This document shows positions 47,178 to 56,201 of a stretch of 64,000 bases of DNA, piece by piece. The stretch spans positions 26,214 to 90,213 of the forward strand of contig JABLXM010000003.1 of the NCBI GenBank assembly GCA_013177815.1. The letters run 5' to 3'. The notes below the pieces were generated by a model. That model ran no database searches. It saw only the letters and a program-made list of their open reading frames with translations, and was not told the DNA's origin. Within the stretch, counting starts at the first letter, position 1. The number at the start of each line of letters is the position of its first letter. Source of the stretch: Anaerolineae bacterium. GTDB lineage: Bacteria > Chloroflexota > Anaerolineae > Anaerolineales > Anaerolineaceae. Made by a program: the position numbers and the translations under genes.

Positions 47178-48683
47178 ATGCCCCTGACGCAACAGCAACT
47201 CTTAAAAACCGCACTGCGCGATGTGGCGCTCTTCTCGTCGCGTCTGACCGGCATCCGGCTGCGCAGCTACCAGCAAGTGGTGGCGCAGGCGGTGCTGGCG
47301 TCGGTGTTCGGCGAGCGCGGGCGCTCCTTCGTGATCATGTTCCCGCGCCAATCCGGCAAGAACGAACTGCAAGCGGGCATCGAAGCCTACCTGCTGCTGG
47401 TGCTCTCGCAGCAACCCGCCGAGATCGTCAAGGTCTCGCCCACCTGGAAGCCCCAATCGCAGAACGCCATGCGCCGGCTGGAGCGGGTGCTGCAAGCCAA
47501 CCATTTGACACGCCAGTTGTGGCGCAAGGAGAACGGTTACATCTACCGCATCGGGCAGGCACGCGCCACCTTCCTTTCCGGCGCGCCGGAATCCAACATC
47601 GTCGGCGCCACCGCCTCCACCCTGCTGGAAGTGGACGAAGCCCAAGATGTACTGGTGAGCAAGTTCGACCGCGAGATTGCGCCGATGGCTGCCAGCACCA
47701 ATGCCACGCGCGTCTTTTGGGGCACCGCCTGGACGGCAGCCACCCTGCTGGGGCGCGAGCTGCGGCTGGCGCGCCTGGCGCAGCAGAGCGATGGCATCCG
47801 GCGGGTCTTCACGCTCTCCGCCGAACAGGTGGCGGCGGAAGTGCCCGCCTATGGCGACTACGTGCGCGCCCAGGTGGCAATGCACGGCAGGGATAACCCC
47901 ATGGTGCGCTCGCAGTACTTCTCGGAAGAGGTGGATGGCGCCGGCGGCATGTTCAACCCCGGGCGGGTGGCGCTGTTGCTGGGCGACCACCCCCGCCTGG
48001 AGCAGCCGCGCGCCGGGCACATCTACGCCGGGCTGCTGGACGTGGCTGGCGAGGACGAAAACCAGGGCAGCGTGCACACCATGCTGACGAACCCGCGGCG
48101 CGATTCCACTGCCCTGACGGTGGTGGAGGTCGACACCGCCACCCTGGCGGACGACCTGATCCGCCGCCCCACCTACCGCGTGGTGCACCGCCGCACCTGG
48201 CAGGGCGTGCGCCATGCCAGCCTGTACAGCCAACTGCGCGCCCTGGCGGATCACTGGCGCATGGCGCACCTGGTGGTGGATGCCACCGGCGTGGGGGCGG
48301 GGCTATCCGCCTTTCTCTCGCAGGCGCTGCCCGGGCGGGTCATCCCGTTCAACTTCTCCCTGCGCAGCAAATCGCAATTGGGCTGGCAGATGCTGGATCT
48401 GGTGGAACAGGGGCGCTTCAAGGAATATCACCCCCCGGATGACCTGTTCCTGCGGCAGTTGCGAGCGGTCGAATACGAGATCCTGCCCGGCGTCGGTCAG
48501 GTGATGCGCTGGGCGGTGCCCGAAGGTGCCCGCGACCCGGTCGATGGGGCGTTGCTGCACGATGACCTGGTGCTTTCGGCAGCGTTGGTGGGCGTGCTGG
48601 ATTCACTGGAGTGGCACACCAGCCGTCCGGCGACTGTGCTGCCCGGCGACGACCCGCTGCGCGAGCTTGACCGCGGTTTCTAG
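47178..48683 (+). CDS. Phage-type terminase large subunit
   Basis: A 501-residue DNA-packaging motor. The ATPase domain has the Walker A variant FPRQSGKN at 55-62 and Walker B with catalytic acid LLEVDEA at 148-154. The C-terminal RNase H-like nuclease shows acidic residues in GLLDVAGEDE, LVVDATGVGAG and HDDLVLSAAL. Complete length, with both halves intact. Codon use and GC resemble the host genes. Spacing to the next gene is 28 bp. Confidence 0.9.
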   Translation: MPLTQQQLLKTALRDVALFSSRLTGIRLRSYQQVVAQAVLASVFGERGRSFVIMFPRQSGKNELQAGIEAYLLLVLSQQPAEIVKVSPTWKPQSQNAMRRLERVLQANHLTRQLWRKENGYIYRIGQARATFLSGAPESNIVGATASTLLEVDEAQDVLVSKFDREIAPMAASTNATRVFWGTAWTAATLLGRELRLARLAQQSDGIRRVFTLSAEQVAAEVPAYGDYVRAQVAMHGRDNPMVRSQYFSEEVDGAGGMFNPGRVALLLGDHPRLEQPRAGHIYAGLLDVAGEDENQGSVHTMLTNPRRDSTALTVVEVDTATLADDLIRRPTYRVVHRRTWQGVRHASLYSQLRALADHWRMAHLVVDATGVGAGLSAFLSQALPGRVIPFNFSLRSKSQLGWQMLDLVEQGRFKEYHPPDDLFLRQLRAVEYEILPGVGQVMRWAVPEGARDPVDGALLHDDLVLSAALVGVLDSLEWHTSRPATVLPGDDPLRELDRGF

Positions 48684-48711
48684 CACCCACGAGCACAAGA
48701 AAGGAGACCTT

Positions 48712-49398
48712 ATGATCACCCCCACACAGGGAAGCATCACCCAACATTTTGGCGAGAACCCGCAAGTCTACGCCCGCTGGGACTACCCCGGTCACAACGG
48801 GTTGGACCTTGCCGGGCAGCTTGGTCAGCCAGTGCTGGCGGTCGCCGCCGGGCGGGTCGCCAACGGTTACGAACCGGCAGGGTACGGCACCTATATCGAA
48901 GTCGATCACGGCGGCTTCTCCACCCTCTATGCCCACCTGGCATTCCGCCTGGTGAACGACGGGCAGCCAGCGGCGGCAGGCGAGGTGTTGGGCGGCTTGG
49001 GTTCCACCGGTTTTTCCAGCGGTCCACACCTGCACTTCGAAGTGCGCATCCCAGGACAGGGCGCGCCCGGCTATCGCCGGCACCAGGTGGACCCGCTGCC
49101 CTACCTGCAGGGCGAAAAGTCCCTGCCGGCGCTTGGCAGCCCAGAGGGGGAAGCGCCAGAGGTGGTGACCGGGCGGGTGCTGTGTCGCTCCTTGCTGGTG
49201 CGCTCGCGCCCCAGCACCCAGGGCGCCGTCGTCAGCCGGCTGGCTCATGGCGACGAGATTGCCCTGCACGCACTGACCGCCGTGTGGGCGCAGATCGGGC
49301 GCGGGCGCTATGTGGCGCTGCGCTATGACGGCGAAGAGCTGGTCGCGCTGGACGCGGACGGGCTGCAACGGCTATCCGCCGCCGGGAGGGGCGCATGA
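48712..49398 (+). CDS. M23-family peptidase with SH3-like domain (endolysin-like)
   Basis: A 228-residue protein. Residues about 1-130 form a LytM/M23 metallopeptidase: zinc ligands in GHNGLDLA (HxxxD) and the second His pair in PHLHFEVR, plus YAHL. Residues about 150-225 look like an SH3b domain (RSLLVRSRPSTQGAVVSRLAHGDEI). No signal peptide is seen, which fits a phage lysin released by a holin. AAGGAGA precedes ATG 48712. It lies between terminase and portal, an unusual position, and overlaps portal by ATGA. Confidence 0.85.
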   Translation: MITPTQGSITQHFGENPQVYARWDYPGHNGLDLAGQLGQPVLAVAAGRVANGYEPAGYGTYIEVDHGGFSTLYAHLAFRLVNDGQPAAAGEVLGGLGSTGFSSGPHLHFEVRIPGQGAPGYRRHQVDPLPYLQGEKSLPALGSPEGEAPEVVTGRVLCRSLLVRSRPSTQGAVVSRLAHGDEIALHALTAVWAQIGRGRYVALRYDGEELVALDADGLQRLSAAGRGA

Positions 49399-50756
49399 CG
49401 CTCTGGAGCCGCATCTTCAAACCCGAACGTGCCGCGCCAGCCCAACGCGCCCGCTTCTCGCAACCGGAGGAGACCGAAGCCACCCTGGCGCTGGGCGCTT
49501 CGCTCTTCGGCGGCTCGCCGCGCGACCGTCTGAGCTACAGCCGCCAGGAGATGCTGGCGGAATGCCTGCTGGCGTGGCGCATCAACCCGCTGGCGCGCCG
49601 CCTGGTGACGCTGACCTCGCAATATGTCATCGGCGACGGACTCAAGATCACCTGCAAACACCCCGCCACCAACAACTTCATCCACCAGGTCTGGCAGCAC
49701 CCGCTCAACCGCCTGGCAACCCGCACGGTGGACTGGTGCGACGAACTGACCCGCAGCGGCAACCTGTTCATCCTGGTCAGCACCGACGGCGGCGGCATGT
49801 CCTACCTGCGGGCGGTGCCGGCGGCGGAGATCGATTCCATCACCAGCCGCCCCAACGACATCGAGCAGCCGCTGCTGTTCCAGCCCAGGGCGGGTGCGGG
49901 CGAGCCGCTGATGTTGAAACCGCCCCCCTACCGTGCTTACGACCCAGCTAACGACCCGCAGCCTTTTGCGCCGGTCATGCTGCATTACACCATCAACCGA
50001 CCGGTAGGCGCGCAGTGGGGCGAATCGGACCTGGCGCCGGTGCTACGCTGGCTGAGCCGTTACGCCAACTGGCTGGAAGACCGCGCCCGCCTGAACCGCT
50101 TCCGCAATACCTTCGTGTATGTCGTCAGCGGGCGCTTCACCAGCGAACGCGAGCGCCAGGAGCGCCAGCGCGCGTTGCACCAGGCGCCGCCCACCCCCGG
50201 CGCCATCCTGGTGAAGGACGATTCGGAACACTGGGAGGTGCTGGCGCCCAAGCTGGAAAGCGACGAAGCCGCCGCCGATGGGCTGGCGCTCAAAAAGATG
50301 ATCGCTGCCGGCTGCGGTGTGCCGCTGCACTTCCTGGCGGAGCCGGAAAGCGCCACCCGCACCACCGCCGAGGCGGCGGGCGGTCCCGCCTACCGCGCCT
50401 TCGAGCAGCGCCAGCAGTACTTCACCTGGTTGGTGGCGGATATTTTGAACGTCTGCATCCGCCGGCGCCGGCTGGTGTTGGGGGCAGTCCGGGGCAGCCC
50501 TTCGCCCGAAGCCGATGTGCACGTGCACGGCGCCGATATCTCGGCGCGCGACAATGCCTCATTGGCAGGCGCGGCGGCGGACATGGCGCCGGTGCTGTGC
50601 ATGCTGCGCGACCGCTGCCTGATCGACGATGAGGAGTTCCTGCGGCTGCTTTACCGCTTCAGCGGCGAGGCGCTCGACCCCGCCGAGATGCTGGCGCGCG
50701 CCGCCGCCCCGCCGACGCCAGCCACCCCGGCTGTCAGCCCGGAGGCATCCCGATGA
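49395..50756 (+). CDS. Phage portal protein
   Basis: A 453-residue protein matching the portal family: LLAWRINPLARRLVTLTSQYVIGDGLKI near the N-terminus, then the wing/stem with DRARLNRFRNTFVYVVSGRFT and the helical ALKKMIAAGCGVPLHFLAEPESATRTTAEA. Portals form the dodecameric ring at one capsid vertex through which terminase threads DNA. The order terminase-portal-protease-capsid is the typical head gene order. 4-bp overlaps on both sides show translational coupling. Confidence 0.85.
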   Translation: MTLWSRIFKPERAAPAQRARFSQPEETEATLALGASLFGGSPRDRLSYSRQEMLAECLLAWRINPLARRLVTLTSQYVIGDGLKITCKHPATNNFIHQVWQHPLNRLATRTVDWCDELTRSGNLFILVSTDGGGMSYLRAVPAAEIDSITSRPNDIEQPLLFQPRAGAGEPLMLKPPPYRAYDPANDPQPFAPVMLHYTINRPVGAQWGESDLAPVLRWLSRYANWLEDRARLNRFRNTFVYVVSGRFTSERERQERQRALHQAPPTPGAILVKDDSEHWEVLAPKLESDEAAADGLALKKMIAAGCGVPLHFLAEPESATRTTAEAAGGPAYRAFEQRQQYFTWLVADILNVCIRRRRLVLGAVRGSPSPEADVHVHGADISARDNASLAGAAADMAPVLCMLRDRCLIDDEEFLRLLYRFSGEALDPAEMLARAAAPPTPATPAVSPEASR

Positions 50757-52723
50757 CCGCCACCAACCTCACACCTGCGTTCAAGGAGGGCAGCATGCAG
50801 ACCCATCAAGCGCGCATCCGCTTGCAGCAGGCGCTGCCCACCGGCGAGCCGCCCATCGCCGGGCAGCCAGGGGGCGCCTTCGAGATCCTCGCCATCACCG
50901 CCGGCGAAGGCAACGGCTGGCATTTCCCCGCCGCGGTGCTGCAGGAATCGCTGCCGTTGTGGCAAGGCGCAGAGTGCTTCATCGATCACGCCTGGCGCGG
51001 GCATTCGCTGCGCGACCTGGCGGGCGTGCTGACTGAAGTCCACTACGACCCGCAGGCGCAGGGCATCCAGGCGCACTTGCAGCCCTTCGGTCCCGCCGCC
51101 GCCCTGCTGGAGGAAATGGGGCGCGCCATGTTGAATGCGCCAGTCGCCCCGGCGGTTGGTTTTTCCGCCGATATCTTGTTCAGCGCCGAAGGACAGCGAG
51201 TGGCGCGCATCCTGCGGGTTTTCTCGGTCGACCTGGTGATCGACCCGGCTCGCGGCGGCACCTTCATGCGGGCGCTCAATTCACAGTGGGCGGGCAGCCC
51301 GCCCGCCCTACGAAAGGAGAATACCATGCCACACGAAACGCCCACCCAAAGCCCCGACCCCGGGGCGCTGCAACAGGCGGTCAACGCGGAACTGGAAAGC
51401 GCCCAAAGCCTGCGGCAGCAACTGTGCGCCAGCCTGCTGGAAAGCGCGCTGGCGGTCTCCAACCTGCCGGCGCCCGCCGCCAACCAGGTGCGCCAGCGCT
51501 TCAGCGGGCGAGCCTTCGACCCGGCTGATCTGAACAGCGCCATCGAGGAGACGCGCGACCTGGTGAGCGCCCTGACCGCCGGCGCGGTGGTGCAGGGTCC
51601 CGGGCGCCTCTCCGCCATGCACAGCAGCGAGGAGCAGTTCACCTCCGCCGTGCACGACCTGCTGGGCGCGCCGCGCCCACAGGGGCTGGAAGGCGTGCAG
51701 CCGCACCGCCTGGGCGGCATCCGCGAACTCTATACCCTCATGACCGGCGACATCGAGTTCCGCGGCACGCTCGACCCCCAACGCGCCCTGTTTGCCACCC
51801 CCAACACCAGCGCCAACCTGCCGGGCGTGCTCAAGAACGCCCTCAACAAGCTGGTGCTGCTGCATTGGGAGGAACTGGGGCGCGCCGGCTACCGCTGGTG
51901 GGAGCCGGTGGTGCAGGTGGAGCACTTCAACTCGCTGCAAGCGCTCACCGGCGTGCTGGTGGGCGAGGTGACCGTGCTGCCCACCATCGCCGAGGGCGCC
52001 GCCTACACCGAACTGGAGGTCAGCGATTCGCCCGAGACCGCCGCCTGGACCAAGTACGGCGGCTATATCGGGCTGACGCTGGAGATGTTCGAGCGTGACG
52101 AGACCCACAAACTGCGCCAGTACCCGCGCAAACTGGCGTCCGCCGGCTTGCGTCGCATCTCCAGCCTGGTGAGCGCGGTCTTCACCGCCAACGGCGCGGT
52201 GGGTCCGGTCATGGCGGATACTTACAACGTCTTCGACGCCTCCCATCACGCCAACCTGGGCACCGCCGCGCTCTCCGGCGCAGCCTGGGAAGCCGCCTCG
52301 CAAGCCATCTATGAACAACCCATGGTGGTCGCCGCGGGCGGAGAGGCGCCCGTGCTGGCGCTGGACGCGCGCTACCTGCTGGTGCCGCGCGAGCTGCGCC
52401 TGACCGCCATGCGCATCCTCTACCCCACCTGGGAGCGTGAAGCCAACATCGTCTCGGAGAACTTGCAGCGCGGGCAGTTCGGCGATGTCATCACCGTGCC
52501 CGAATGGAGCGACGCCAACAACTGGGCGGCGGTCGCCGACCCGCGCCTGGCACCGGGCATCATCCTGGCGGAGCGCTTCGGCGTAATGCCGGAAGTCTTC
52601 ATCGCCGATAACGAACTGAACGGCGCGCTCTTCACCAACGACCAGTTGCGCATCAAAGCGCGCCACTGGCTGGCGGTGCTGGTGGCAGACCACCGCCCGC
52701 TCTACAAAGCCAACGTGGCTTGA
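50753..52723 (+). CDS. Prohead protease fused to phage major capsid protein
   Basis: A 656-residue single frame. Residues about 15-175 resemble a prohead (U35/herpes-fold) protease with likely catalytic His79 (CFIDHAW) and Ser138 (VGFSAD). Residues about 192-290 are a scaffold-like Gln/Glu/Ala-rich region, and from about 310 on is a capsid-type domain (GIRELYTLMTGDIEFRGTL, LVPRELRLTAMRIL, HWLAVLVADHRP) similar to Mu gpT-like/HK97-fold coat proteins. Three ATGs carry strong ribosome-binding sites: 50753, 50795 (AAGGAGG) and the internal 51326 (AAAGGAGA). The family assignment of the coat part is from pattern. Confidence 0.8.
   Translation: MTATNLTPAFKEGSMQTHQARIRLQQALPTGEPPIAGQPGGAFEILAITAGEGNGWHFPAAVLQESLPLWQGAECFIDHAWRGHSLRDLAGVLTEVHYDPQAQGIQAHLQPFGPAAALLEEMGRAMLNAPVAPAVGFSADILFSAEGQRVARILRVFSVDLVIDPARGGTFMRALNSQWAGSPPALRKENTMPHETPTQSPDPGALQQAVNAELESAQSLRQQLCASLLESALAVSNLPAPAANQVRQRFSGRAFDPADLNSAIEETRDLVSALTAGAVVQGPGRLSAMHSSEEQFTSAVHDLLGAPRPQGLEGVQPHRLGGIRELYTLMTGDIEFRGTLDPQRALFATPNTSANLPGVLKNALNKLVLLHWEELGRAGYRWWEPVVQVEHFNSLQALTGVLVGEVTVLPTIAEGAAYTELEVSDSPETAAWTKYGGYIGLTLEMFERDETHKLRQYPRKLASAGLRRISSLVSAVFTANGAVGPVMADTYNVFDASHHANLGTAALSGAAWEAASQAIYEQPMVVAAGGEAPVLALDARYLLVPRELRLTAMRILYPTWEREANIVSENLQRGQFGDVITVPEWSDANNWAAVADPRLAPGIILAERFGVMPEVFIADNELNGALFTNDQLRIKARHWLAVLVADHRPLYKANVA
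51313..51328 (+). promoter_or_regulatory. Internal ribosome-binding site and ATG inside the protease-capsid frame
   Basis: AAAGGAGA at 51313-51320 with ATG at 51326, in the same frame as the long gene. Initiation here would give a separate 465-residue scaffold-plus-capsid product ending at 52723, starting MPHETPTQS, exactly at the protease/scaffold junction. Confidence 0.7.
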
Positions 52724-52760
52724 TCGACCCGCATCGAACAACGAGAAAAGGAGAAAAATC

Positions 52761-53132
52761 GTGAACACCCTCTTGACTTCCCGCAAATTCTGGTTCACCG
52801 CCCTGGCGCTGCTGGTGGTGGTGATGCAGGCATTCATCCCCACCTTCGAGATCGATCAGGAGAACGCCGCCGCCCTGTTGGTGGTGATCGTCTCCTACCT
52901 GGTGGGCGTTTCGGTCGACCCCGGACCGGGCGGCTGGCGCGGTGTGCTGCGCTCGCGCAAGTTCTGGAGCGCCGTGGTTGGGCTGCTGATCATCCTGCTG
53001 GATGGCTTCGGTCTGGCGCTGCCCTTCGAACTGACCGCGGAGCAGTTGATCGCATTGGCGGTCACCATCGGCGGCTATATCACCGCGGTCGCGCTGGAAA
53101 AGCCCAAAGGGCTGCCCCAGCCGGCGCGCTGA
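52761..53132 (+). CDS. Holin-like membrane protein with internal duplication
   Basis: A 123-residue protein made of two similar halves, each opening with SRKFW followed by a hydrophobic helix (LTSRKFWFTALALLVVVMQAF and LRSRKFWSAVVGLLIILLDGF) and then a polar stretch plus a second hydrophobic helix (LLVVIVSYLVGVSV and LIALAVTIGGYITAVAL). Four membrane helices are predicted. Phage holins and holin-like LydA/phage_holin proteins have this size and location near a lysin. ATG follows AAAAGGAGAAAA. Confidence 0.6.
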   Translation: MNTLLTSRKFWFTALALLVVVMQAFIPTFEIDQENAAALLVVIVSYLVGVSVDPGPGGWRGVLRSRKFWSAVVGLLIILLDGFGLALPFELTAEQLIALAVTIGGYITAVALEKPKGLPQPAR

Positions 53133-53218
53133 ACCGGCGCCCGCGTTGATCTTGGTGAGCGAAGCGACTCCAAACCATCCCGCGCCTGCCTTCGCTTCGC
53201 TCACCGCCCTGCACAACC

Positions 53219-53290
53219 TGTGGATAACCCGCCGTTTTCTGTGGATAACCCGGCATTCCCTGTTGATAACTGTCGATATTTTCTGGATAA
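53219..53290 (-). repeat. Array of four DnaA-box-like 9-mers at exact 21-bp spacing
   Basis: Read on the minus strand: TTATCCACA at 53219-53227 and 53240-53248 (both perfect), TTATCAACA at 53261-53269 and TTATCCAGA at 53282-53290 (one mismatch each). Starts are 21 bp apart, two helical turns. The array fills the 173-bp gap between the holin-like gene and the next small gene. It could bind DnaA or act as iterons. Confidence 0.75.
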
Positions 53291-53305
53291 AAGTGAGGAA
53301 AACCC

Positions 53306-53506
53306 ATGAACATCTTCGAGATTGCGCGCGGGCTGGCTGGCGAGGGGGTGCTTTCCTGCCGGCGGCGCGCCGATGGCAGCCTGGTCGTCATCAACGCCCG
53401 CGGGCAGAAGGTGATCTACCCCGCCGATGTGGTGGCGGCGCTGGCGGAAAAACTGGCTGCCGTCTCACCCCGGCGCCGCAAAACCGGCAAGCGCGCCGGG
53501 CGCTGA
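53306..53506 (+). CDS. Small basic phage-cassette protein
   Basis: A 66-residue protein, MNIFEIARGLAGEGVLSC then a basic, beta-rich middle (DGSLVVINARGQKVIYPADVV) and an Arg/Lys-rich tail (SPRRRKTGKRAGR). GTGAGG lies ahead of the ATG. It follows the DnaA-box array and is 10 bp before the next gene. Not recognised; the tail suggests nucleic acid contact. Confidence 0.6.
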   Translation: MNIFEIARGLAGEGVLSCRRRADGSLVVINARGQKVIYPADVVAALAEKLAAVSPRRRKTGKRAGR

Positions 53507-53516
53507 GGAGCACGTT

Positions 53517-54023
53517 ATGCCCACCCCCGGAAAGGACTGCGACATCACCCTGGCACACCCGCTGGTCAACGGCGGCGAGCCGGTCGGCTTCATGCTGCAC
53601 CCCGCCAACCAACTGATCGGACCGGAGGTGCGCATCCATCACGAGGTCTACACCGACGCGCTGGCGCAGCACTTCGACGTGCGCCACCTGTGGTTCGACG
53701 TGCTGATCGCCGACGAGTTGTTGGCGCCGGATGGCAGCCGCCTGGCGGGCGCCGCCAGCCAAATGCTGGCGCACCTGACAGCCATCGCTGCCGCGCACAC
53801 CAACATCGCTCTCGATACCCGCCTGGGCGTCATTTCGGGGCTTTCTGCCCTGCAACATGCCCTCATCTATTCCATCCGCCACGACCACACCGTCATCACC
53901 GTGCACCTCACCACCCACTCGGCGAACTTCCAGCCTGCCAACCCTGCCTACTACTTCGCTTCGGTCTGGCAGGCGGCGGATTACAGCGGCGAGATGGATT
54001 GGAATAATTCCTATTGGAGGTAG
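53517..54023 (+). CDS. Uncharacterised phage-cassette protein
   Basis: A 168-residue protein beginning MPTPGKDCDITLAHPLVNGG. The middle is helical (ASQMLAHLTAIAAAHTN) and the C-terminus is aromatic and acidic (YYFASVWQAADYSGEMDW). No family recognised. Position between head genes and a tail-fibre-like gene suggests a structural or completion protein. TGAGGAGCACGTT precedes ATG 53517, and it is 4 bp from the next gene. Confidence 0.65.
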   Translation: MPTPGKDCDITLAHPLVNGGEPVGFMLHPANQLIGPEVRIHHEVYTDALAQHFDVRHLWFDVLIADELLAPDGSRLAGAASQMLAHLTAIAAAHTNIALDTRLGVISGLSALQHALIYSIRHDHTVITVHLTTHSANFQPANPAYYFASVWQAADYSGEMDWNNSYWR

Positions 54024-54027
54024 GAGC

Positions 54028-55341
54028 ATGAACTACCCTTTGTCTTCCGATGTCAGCGCCGGGCAGCCCACCGCCGCCAGCCACTATAACAACCTGCGCG
54101 CCGATGCCCTGCGCCTGGGTCAATCCGCCGGCGATGCGGTCAACCTGGGCGACCTGCTTTCAGATTATCAAAGCCATCTGTCGATCGAATACCTTGCCAC
54201 CAACCGCCTGCGTGTGCCGGCATCCGCCGCCGAGCCAGTGGCGTTGGTGATCGGCGGGGCGCCGCTGCGAGCCACCGCCAATGTGGACCTGCCCGCCGGG
54301 CGATTCTCCGGCGCGCCCGCCACCTGGTACATCTTCGCCGTGCAAACCGCCGGCAGTCACGCCTTCAGCCTGGAGGTCAACACTTCGCCGGAGGGCGCTG
54401 CCAACAAGCGCCTGATCGGTTCGGTCTACTTCGACGGCGATGATCTGATCCAGGACAGCATCCGCACCCGCCAGGCGGCGCATATCGCCGACCTGCTGGC
54501 GCTGGCGTACGCCCAGCGCTGCGATGGTCGCCTGACGTTCGCCAGCGGCGCGCCCGTGCCGGGCACGGATATCACCGCCGCCGGCACGCTGTATTTCACG
54601 CCCTATCACGGCAACCGCGTCAGCCTGTACAACCCGCTCACCGGCTGGGGCTTGCGCACCTTCGACGAACTATCGATCTCGCTCGCCGCCCTCTCCGCTG
54701 GCGAGATGGCAGACGTGTTCATCCATGATGAAGGCGGCGCGCTGGCGCTGCAATTGGAAGCGTGGTCCACCCCCAACGCCCGCGCCGCTGCGCTCACCCG
54801 CCAGGACGGGGTGCTGGTCAAGTCGGGCGCGGCGGGCTGCCGCTACCTGGGCACGCTCTACGCCAACGGCAGCGGCACCGGCGAGGACAGCCAAGCCAAC
54901 CGCCTGCTATGGAACTGCCGCAACCGCGTGGCGCGCAAACTGCTGCGGCAGGAGACGACCGATTCCTGGAGTCACACCGCCGCCACCTGGCGTCCGTTCA
55001 ACAACGATGTCGCCAACCGCTTCATGTTCGTCGCCGGGCTGGTGGAGGACGCCTTCAGCATCAGCGCCGTGGGCATGTCCTCCAACGCATCCTCCACCAA
55101 TCGCTACCTGGGCATCTGCGACAAGGACGGCTCGGATTACGTCCTGCGCCCGGCTGCGCTTTCTGCCATCGGCGCCACCCAGAACCGCATCAGCATGGTC
55201 GCGCAGTGCGTCGACCTGCCGGCGCTGGGTCTGAACACCCTCTACCTGGGCGAATACGGCGCCTCCGGCACCACTTTCTACGGCGATTACAGTGTTCCCG
55301 GTCAGTTGCAATGCGGCGGGAGCGGTCTATGGTACGCCTAG
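54028..55341 (+). CDS. Tail-fibre-like structural protein
   Basis: A 437-residue, Gly/Ala/Thr/Ser-rich, beta-rich protein. MNYPLSSDVSAGQPTAASHYNNLRADALRLG is the kind of N-terminus found in phage tail or fibre proteins that tile a receptor-binding shaft. The rest shows repeated strands (TPYHGNRVSLYNPLTGWGLRTFDELSISLAALSAGEMADVF). GGAGGTAGGAGC precedes ATG 54028. A surface-exposed particle protein is likely, but no enzymatic motif is seen. Confidence 0.6.
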   Translation: MNYPLSSDVSAGQPTAASHYNNLRADALRLGQSAGDAVNLGDLLSDYQSHLSIEYLATNRLRVPASAAEPVALVIGGAPLRATANVDLPAGRFSGAPATWYIFAVQTAGSHAFSLEVNTSPEGAANKRLIGSVYFDGDDLIQDSIRTRQAAHIADLLALAYAQRCDGRLTFASGAPVPGTDITAAGTLYFTPYHGNRVSLYNPLTGWGLRTFDELSISLAALSAGEMADVFIHDEGGALALQLEAWSTPNARAAALTRQDGVLVKSGAAGCRYLGTLYANGSGTGEDSQANRLLWNCRNRVARKLLRQETTDSWSHTAATWRPFNNDVANRFMFVAGLVEDAFSISAVGMSSNASSTNRYLGICDKDGSDYVLRPAALSAIGATQNRISMVAQCVDLPALGLNTLYLGEYGASGTTFYGDYSVPGQLQCGGSGLWYA

Positions 55342-55354
55342 GGGAGGAGGAACG

Positions 55355-56005
55355 ATGAGCGACCTGGCTGAATTCATCACCCGCCTGCGCCAGACCCTGG
55401 GCGACCCGGCTGGCGAACGCTACGGCGAGAGCCTGCTGGCGGAGGCGCTGCGCAAGGCGCTGGCAGGCTACGACCAGGCGGCGCCGCTGGTGCGCATCCA
55501 GGATGTGATCTTCGCCGGCGATGGGCGGCAGCAAGCGCTGGCGGGGCTGGGCGGTCTGCTCAGCCTGCAACAGGTGGTCTATCCATACGTCGACGAAAAC
55601 TCCCCAGCCACCCACGCCTACACCTGGTACTGGCTGGACGGGGTGGCAGTGTTGGACCTGAGCACCCGCGCCGCCCCACGGGCTGGCGAAACGGCGCGGC
55701 TGACCTTCAGCGCCCGCAACACCATCGCCGGGCTGGATGGCGCCGCCGAAACCAGCCTGCCGGCAGAACACGACACCGCCCTGGTGGAGGGCGCCGCGGC
55801 TTTTGCGCAAATGATGCGCGCCCTCAGCATCAACGAAGCCTACAACAACCGCAACACGCAACTGGACCTGTTGGCAGAATCGCGCCGGCGGCTGGAGTCG
55901 TACGAGGAGATGCTGCGCCGCATCGGTCGCCTGGCGTTCACCCCGCCCGGCGCGTTCGCCGCCGGCGGCTGGCGCCTGGACCGCTGGGATGGCATCCGGT
56001 CATAG
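55355..56005 (+). CDS. Head-tail connector/adaptor-like phage protein
   Basis: A 216-residue protein, MSDLAEFITRLRQTLGDPAGERYGESLLAEALRKALAGYDQ, an all-helical start seen in phage adaptor or neck proteins, with a beta middle and a helical end (QLDLLAESRRRLESYEEMLRRIGRL). GGGGAGGAGG precedes ATG 55355. It is the last gene of the cassette; repeats begin directly after it. Classification by position and general pattern only. Confidence 0.55.
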   Translation: MSDLAEFITRLRQTLGDPAGERYGESLLAEALRKALAGYDQAAPLVRIQDVIFAGDGRQQALAGLGGLLSLQQVVYPYVDENSPATHAYTWYWLDGVAVLDLSTRAAPRAGETARLTFSARNTIAGLDGAAETSLPAEHDTALVEGAAAFAQMMRALSINEAYNNRNTQLDLLAESRRRLESYEEMLRRIGRLAFTPPGAFAAGGWRLDRWDGIRS

Positions 56006-56010
56006 ACGCC

Positions 56011-56201
56011 CCGTCATCCTGAGGCTACTGCCCTCCGACATCCTGAGGCTGCGTATCACAATCACCGTCATCCTCAGGCTGCTGCCCCCAGTCATCCTGA
56101 GGCTGCGTATCACAATCACCGTCATCCTGAGGCTGCGTAGCAGCCGAAGGATCTCCCAGGTCGAGGCGGGGAAGCCAGCCCGTCCGTCATTCTGAGGACG
56201 G
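56011..56201. repeat. REP/MITE-like repeat cluster, first part
   Basis: Contains five copies of (C/A)GTCATCCTGAGGCTGC or close variants. A 54-bp unit (CATCCTGAGGCTGCGTATCA...) is tandemly duplicated, starting at 56039 and 56093, and the last copy extends into CGAAGGATCTCCCAGGTCGAGG. It starts right after the last cassette gene. The whole gap 56006-56411 holds only such repeats. Confidence 0.8.

Follow-up and report, generated by a model that had tools for sequence, protein, structure and literature searches.

Clusters of DnaA boxes situated away from the replication origin (oriC) have been described in Bacillus subtilis, where six such clusters together affect the timing of initiation, and in Escherichia coli, where they are represented by datA and DARS (PMC5295017, PMC4585315). 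The B. subtilis clusters can bind DnaA and delay initiation. datA, DARS1, and DARS2 are non-coding clusters of 3–6 DnaA boxes that keep a conserved chromosomal place; datA requires an IHF site together with set box spacings. Among phages, the Lactococcus phage LW81 group carries three boxes at exact 21-bp steps. Finally, the gene transfer agent (GTA) of Bartonella has been tied to a phage-derived origin and run-off replication (PMC2697382). That origin adjoins a phage helicase, and the term DnaA is absent from the text of PMC2697382. The literature searched contained nothing direct on DnaA boxes associated with gene transfer agents or on 21-bp arrays in prophages.

The window analyzed here comprises 64,000 nucleotides of DNA from an Anaerolineae bacterium. 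It belongs to contig C185 of a MAG of 3.24 Mb that is 89% complete and whose nearest relatives in our comparison set are Anaerolineaceae (Longilinea, Ornatilinea, Bellilinea). A reading of the sequence alone had pointed to four DnaA boxes on the minus strand, arranged in exact 21-bp steps within a phage-like cassette. Both the positions and the spacing of the boxes were reproduced in the sequence. The cassette contains the following features in this order:

47178–48683, plus strand: terminase large subunit (PHROG 5909, E=6e-10; Terminase_6C)
48586–49398, plus strand: M23 peptidase with an SH3-like end (Peptidase_M23, E=3e-24)
49395–50756, plus strand: portal protein (PHROG 10963, E=1e-32)
50753–52723, plus strand: fused head-maturation protease and major capsid protein (Phage_capsid_4, E=2e-26; PHROG 4523/133)
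52761–53132, plus strand: holin-like gene, upstream of the hairpin (PHROG holin, E=5e-4)
53154–53205, plus strand: GC-rich hairpin just 5' of the array, with perfect 14-bp arms (53154–53167 and 53192–53205) and no T-run
53219–53227, minus strand: DnaA box 1, perfect TTATCCACA
53240–53248, minus strand: DnaA box 2, perfect TTATCCACA
53261–53269, minus strand: DnaA box 3, one mismatch, TTATCAACA
53282–53290, minus strand: DnaA box 4, one mismatch, TTATCCAGA; about 15 bp 5' of the o66 start codon
53295–53305, plus strand: GAGG ribosome-binding-site-like stretch and spacer to o66, directly after the array, as read from the sequence
53306–53506, plus strand: o66, small conserved gene downstream of the array, with tblastn relatives in this frame only
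53517–54023, plus strand: o168, conserved cassette gene, no function assigned
54031–55341, plus strand: o436, conserved cassette gene, no function assigned
55292–56005, plus strand: o237, conserved cassette gene with a very weak structural-protein match

The array resembles the B. subtilis clusters in having several DnaA boxes away from oriC, but differs from them in its location within a phage-derived head cassette, its regular 21-bp steps, and the recurrence of clusters in that cassette. With datA and the DARS loci it shares the non-coding character and the grouping of several boxes at a distance from oriC. The LW81 boxes share the exact 21-bp steps, but these reside on phage genomes, whereas the present array lies in a chromosomal cassette with no recognized replication gene. 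As in Bartonella, domesticated phage head genes are found near a replication signal; however, no tail genes were recognized in the present cassette.

The expected number of occurrences of four such boxes within 72 bp of the window is approximately 4e-7 under a Poisson model, which bears out the proposal that their equal spacing is unlikely to arise by chance. TRF reported a period-21 repeat at 53217–53270. The 64-kb window contains 11 DnaA-box matches with at most one mismatch, compared with 7.1 expected, and those outside the array are scattered singles. In the 3.24-Mb genome we found 27 exact TTATCCACA boxes. Exact pairs separated by 19–23 bp occur solely in the array and in oriC (contig C208), a statement that applies to the sequenced part of the MAG owing to its 89% completeness. 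The array stands out from this genomic background, which refutes the notion that boxes occur at equal density throughout the genome. Neither a second copy of the array in the genome nor a match to the flanks of oriC was detected; the possibility that the array is a copy of oriC or a dispersed repeat was rejected for want of a second copy. A search of phages for DNA directly related to the array found none. The array occurs in a single genome, which is the sole member of its genus among the genomes compared.

The identity of the boxes was approached through the oriC of the family. Contig C208 carries three boxes at 20–21 bp beside an NTase gene, with dNK and SpoVS genes nearby; the names NTase and SpoVS are candidate assignments from our own reading of the sequence, and among the ORFs tested a Pfam match was obtained for dNK only. 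An exact box pair at 19–23 bp steps is present in 105 of 147 family genomes (0 in a reversed control), the steps being nearly always 20–22 bp, and an NTase neighbor lies beside the pair at most checked loci. In two complete genomes, the sign of GC skew flips around this gene: between 640 and 690 kb in G069 (NTase gene at 681.6 kb) and between 250 and 300 kb in G038 (NTase gene at 291.5 kb). Synteny and these flips identify the NTase locus as oriC and its boxes as the DnaA boxes of the family; the oriC of the array genome was placed on C208 by synteny. In three genomes belonging to two genera, a second exact box pair lies about 29 kb from the oriC pair (C2 of G005, 16848; C15 of G024, 82984; C9 of G026, 182758).

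The DnaA of the array genome keeps GGRDHTTAMHA, the canonical signature of DNA binding and box recognition in DnaA. Measured against the host's own DnaA box, where at least two near matches were sought, two of the four boxes are perfect and two carry one mismatch; their 21-bp spacing, as in the family oriC, is compatible with cooperative binding. The array boxes are most likely real DnaA boxes. The suggestion that host DnaA would be the reader gains weight from the occurrence of the same 9-mer at 20–21 bp spacing in oriC and from the intact recognition signature. Because the family oriC has the same box and spacing, the array can be classed, on sequence grounds, as an oriC-style DnaA-binding cluster that is not itself a copy of oriC, and we consider it quite probable that DnaA truly binds there. 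The resemblance to the Anaerolineaceae oriC extends to the orientation of TTATCCACA boxes on one strand. In contrast to oriC, the array has no oriC gene neighbors, no clearly distinct AT-rich unwinding region, and no related flanking DNA, and it is present at its site in one genome only. Neither a GC-skew switch nor the gene neighbors of oriC mark the array as the chromosomal origin, which is the NTase locus.

The array is placed between the hairpin and the ribosome-binding site of o66. In relatives with a gap between holin and o66, this gap carries a GC-rich hairpin, whose sequence varies, and then a ribosome-binding site; the array has no counterpart there. Hairpins that are GC-rich, free of T-runs, and dissimilar in sequence occupy the same position after the holin gene in L141, L143, L144, L147, L153, L155, L156, L158, L160, and L161. 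Retention of the position despite dissimilar sequence suggests that an RNA structure is conserved at the junction of the two cassette halves. In several other relatives (e.g., L013, L014, L017, L020), the holin gene abuts the next gene with no gap. Just after the cassette, imperfect tandem repeats of the motif CATCCTGAGGCTGCGTATCACAATCA extend over 56009–56139.

Long open frames run through the array and its 21-bp period corresponds to seven codons, features that would be expected if the boxes encoded a 7-residue repeat of a hidden gene; in genus g23 a box-like repeat does fall in coding sequence, at the 3' end of the portal gene. However, neither overlapping frame through the array has relatives, whereas o66 has them in its own frame. 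We therefore regard the array as non-coding and rejected the hidden gene, a caveat attached to the sequence-only reading; that the repeat is coding strikes us as extremely improbable. No sigma-70 promoter was found in or near the array at the threshold of the tool used, and a TTGATA/GATAAA pair with a 17-bp spacer inside boxes 3 and 4 is merely suggestive of a promoter.

The cassette itself is widespread in the family. A capsid relative was found in 100 of 147 genomes and in 50 of the 64 good ones, with the cassette near single copy; Tad-type genes lie upstream of it in many genera. Records of phages and plasmids contain hardly any capsid relatives: one in a phage, with 28% identity, and two in plasmids. 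Of the 13 genera represented more than once in the capsid tree, 12 are monophyletic, barring viral contigs that fall inside two of them; the exception is g3. These IMG/VR "viral" relatives, which are mostly short contigs, may be pieces of the same chromosomal cassettes. Its presence in 100 of 147 genomes and its adherence to host genera indicate that the cassette behaves as a domesticated element. The cassette has the look of vertical inheritance and not of a live phage. The recognized genes are those of head and lysis; tail genes are represented by one very weak match in a relative, and the downstream genes have no assignment. A full-text literature search for the cassette in Anaerolineae returned no relevant paper. 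We regard the cassette (47178–56005 and relatives) as a candidate for a gene transfer agent, or for another kind of domesticated particle, in Anaerolineaceae. Vertical inheritance with co-diversification alongside the host, one criterion for such agents, is seen here; another criterion is the packaging of random host DNA into particles and its delivery by them (PMC9662315).

The sequence-only reading had also likened the array to plasmid or phage iterons. This interpretation as an origin was not supported: no initiator is recognized in the cassette, no clearly distinct AT-rich unwinding region adjoins the array, and the array is absent from the homologous gap of relatives. An ancestral phage origin was rejected because the homologous holin–o66 gap of relatives holds the hairpin only. 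A related possibility is that the array serves as a small origin, driven by DnaA, from which the cassette or the DNA around it is amplified, in the manner of the phage-derived origin near the Bartonella GTA, whose run-off replication provides a precedent (PMC2697382). The layout of the boxes is oriC-like, and the cluster of G105 is more origin-like still, with four perfect boxes beside an AT-rich stretch right after the terminase gene. Against this, searches of PHROGs and Pfam recognized no initiator, as had been claimed, and no helicase or loader gene in the cassette, several of whose genes are without assignment. The weakest 50-mer, which spans boxes 3 and 4 and the o66 leader, falls in the top 0.8% of the window versus 0.13% at oriC; the GC-rich hairpin occupies the other side of the array, and cluster positions are non-homologous between lineages. 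A functional local origin has weak support, the least of the mechanisms considered here, and we judge it improbable.

Recurrence of box clusters was assessed by scanning 113 dereplicated cassettes for stretches of 50 bp with at least two boxes, one or more of them exact. The script identified 8 clusters in cassettes compared with 0.05 in dinucleotide shuffles, and a further two, in L075 and L145, fall within cassette gaps shortly past the script boundary. By our own count the clusters are spread over about seven lineages, and most cassettes have none. Their sites differ: after the terminase gene (G105); inside an 18-residue in-frame insertion of the terminase, as two palindromic DnaA-box pairs (G134; L047:4620–4680); in the coding portal 3' end of three species of genus g23; after the capsid gene in the sister sequences L075 and L076; and after the holin gene in the array genome, G040, and G028. 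Both flank clusters listed by the script, in L184, lie at the oriC of G111, and the flanks (0.78 Mb) therefore hold none outside oriC. Exact pairs number 3 in 0.62 Mb of cassette, compared with 16–60 non-oriC loci elsewhere in a total of 422 Mb (Poisson P 2e-6 to 1e-4), where 16 is our own tally of classified non-oriC pair loci and the range reflects single-pair genomes left unchecked; exclusion of the discovery locus gives P 3e-4 to 4e-3. Comparison of cassette with flank by lineage is weaker, with 7 of 8 including the oriC locus (P 0.025) and 6 of 7 without this window (P 0.047). Triple boxes in viral contigs also favor particular steps (59 at 21 bp and 53 at 22 bp versus 7 at 20 bp and 17 at 19 bp). 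Exact 21- or 22-bp triples occur in over 100 viral contigs, including L253 (Lactococcus phage LW81), and phages may use helically phased DnaA arrays more widely.

Enrichment in cassettes, together with persistence over three g23 species and the sister viral contigs L075 and L076, argues against a neutral accident in which short box repeats of no effect would multiply, through spreading or slippage, wherever a gap tolerates them. Such an accident would account for the degraded boxes 3 and 4, for an array private to one genome, for the other intergenic repeats in other cassette gaps, and for the non-oriC pairs in ordinary gaps; we consider it unlikely on balance.

The positions of the clusters bear on their role. 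Clusters at differing places across lineages suggest a position-independent effect such as titration. The array could be a pure sink for DnaA, like the B. subtilis non-oriC clusters or E. coli datA, and the cassette merely a tolerant gap. Such clusters are already known (PMC5295017), and their variable position is what a sink predicts. In G111, G069, and G010, which belong to different genera, the distance between cassette and oriC is 11, 31, and 53 kb, respectively; in five other genomes it is 124–601 kb, and in the array genome the two occupy separate contigs. An ancestral location of the cassette near oriC is possible. Titration alone leaves the enrichment of clusters in cassettes over other gaps unexplained, and we view it as a doubtful account, if a serious one.

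The explanation we favor, tentatively and at somewhat less than an even chance, combines control of downstream genes with the holding of DnaA from oriC. A host-DnaA binding cluster of the oriC type would have been gained in the holin–o66 gap of a vertically inherited phage-head cassette. With DnaA on all four boxes, which share a helical face, a small cooperative assembly would cover the o66 leader; o66, o168, o436, and o237 would respond to the level of DnaA or to its ATP-bound state, and the array would concurrently keep DnaA from oriC. We infer DnaA occupancy, a regulatory or titration effect, and any benefit in this scheme. The position of the array at the o66 leader, flanked by a conserved hairpin and gene, suggests control of downstream genes in this genome. 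The other cluster sites (in the terminase, downstream of the capsid gene, at the 3' end of the portal gene) are easier to reconcile with a role that does not depend on position than with control of a single promoter; moreover, no promoter was recognized near the array and most cassettes lack a cluster.

It is tempting to speculate that a domesticated cassette repeatedly recruits oriC-type arrays across the family, and that DnaA drives its expression or local amplification, tying particles or gene transfer to the replication cycle, although we give this broader scheme a rather slim chance. If DnaA does read the array, binding sites by themselves would have linked a phage-derived module to the host initiator, without any initiator of phage origin. 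Clusters gained repeatedly at different cassette sites across the family form a natural series in which the role of the boxes can be explored.
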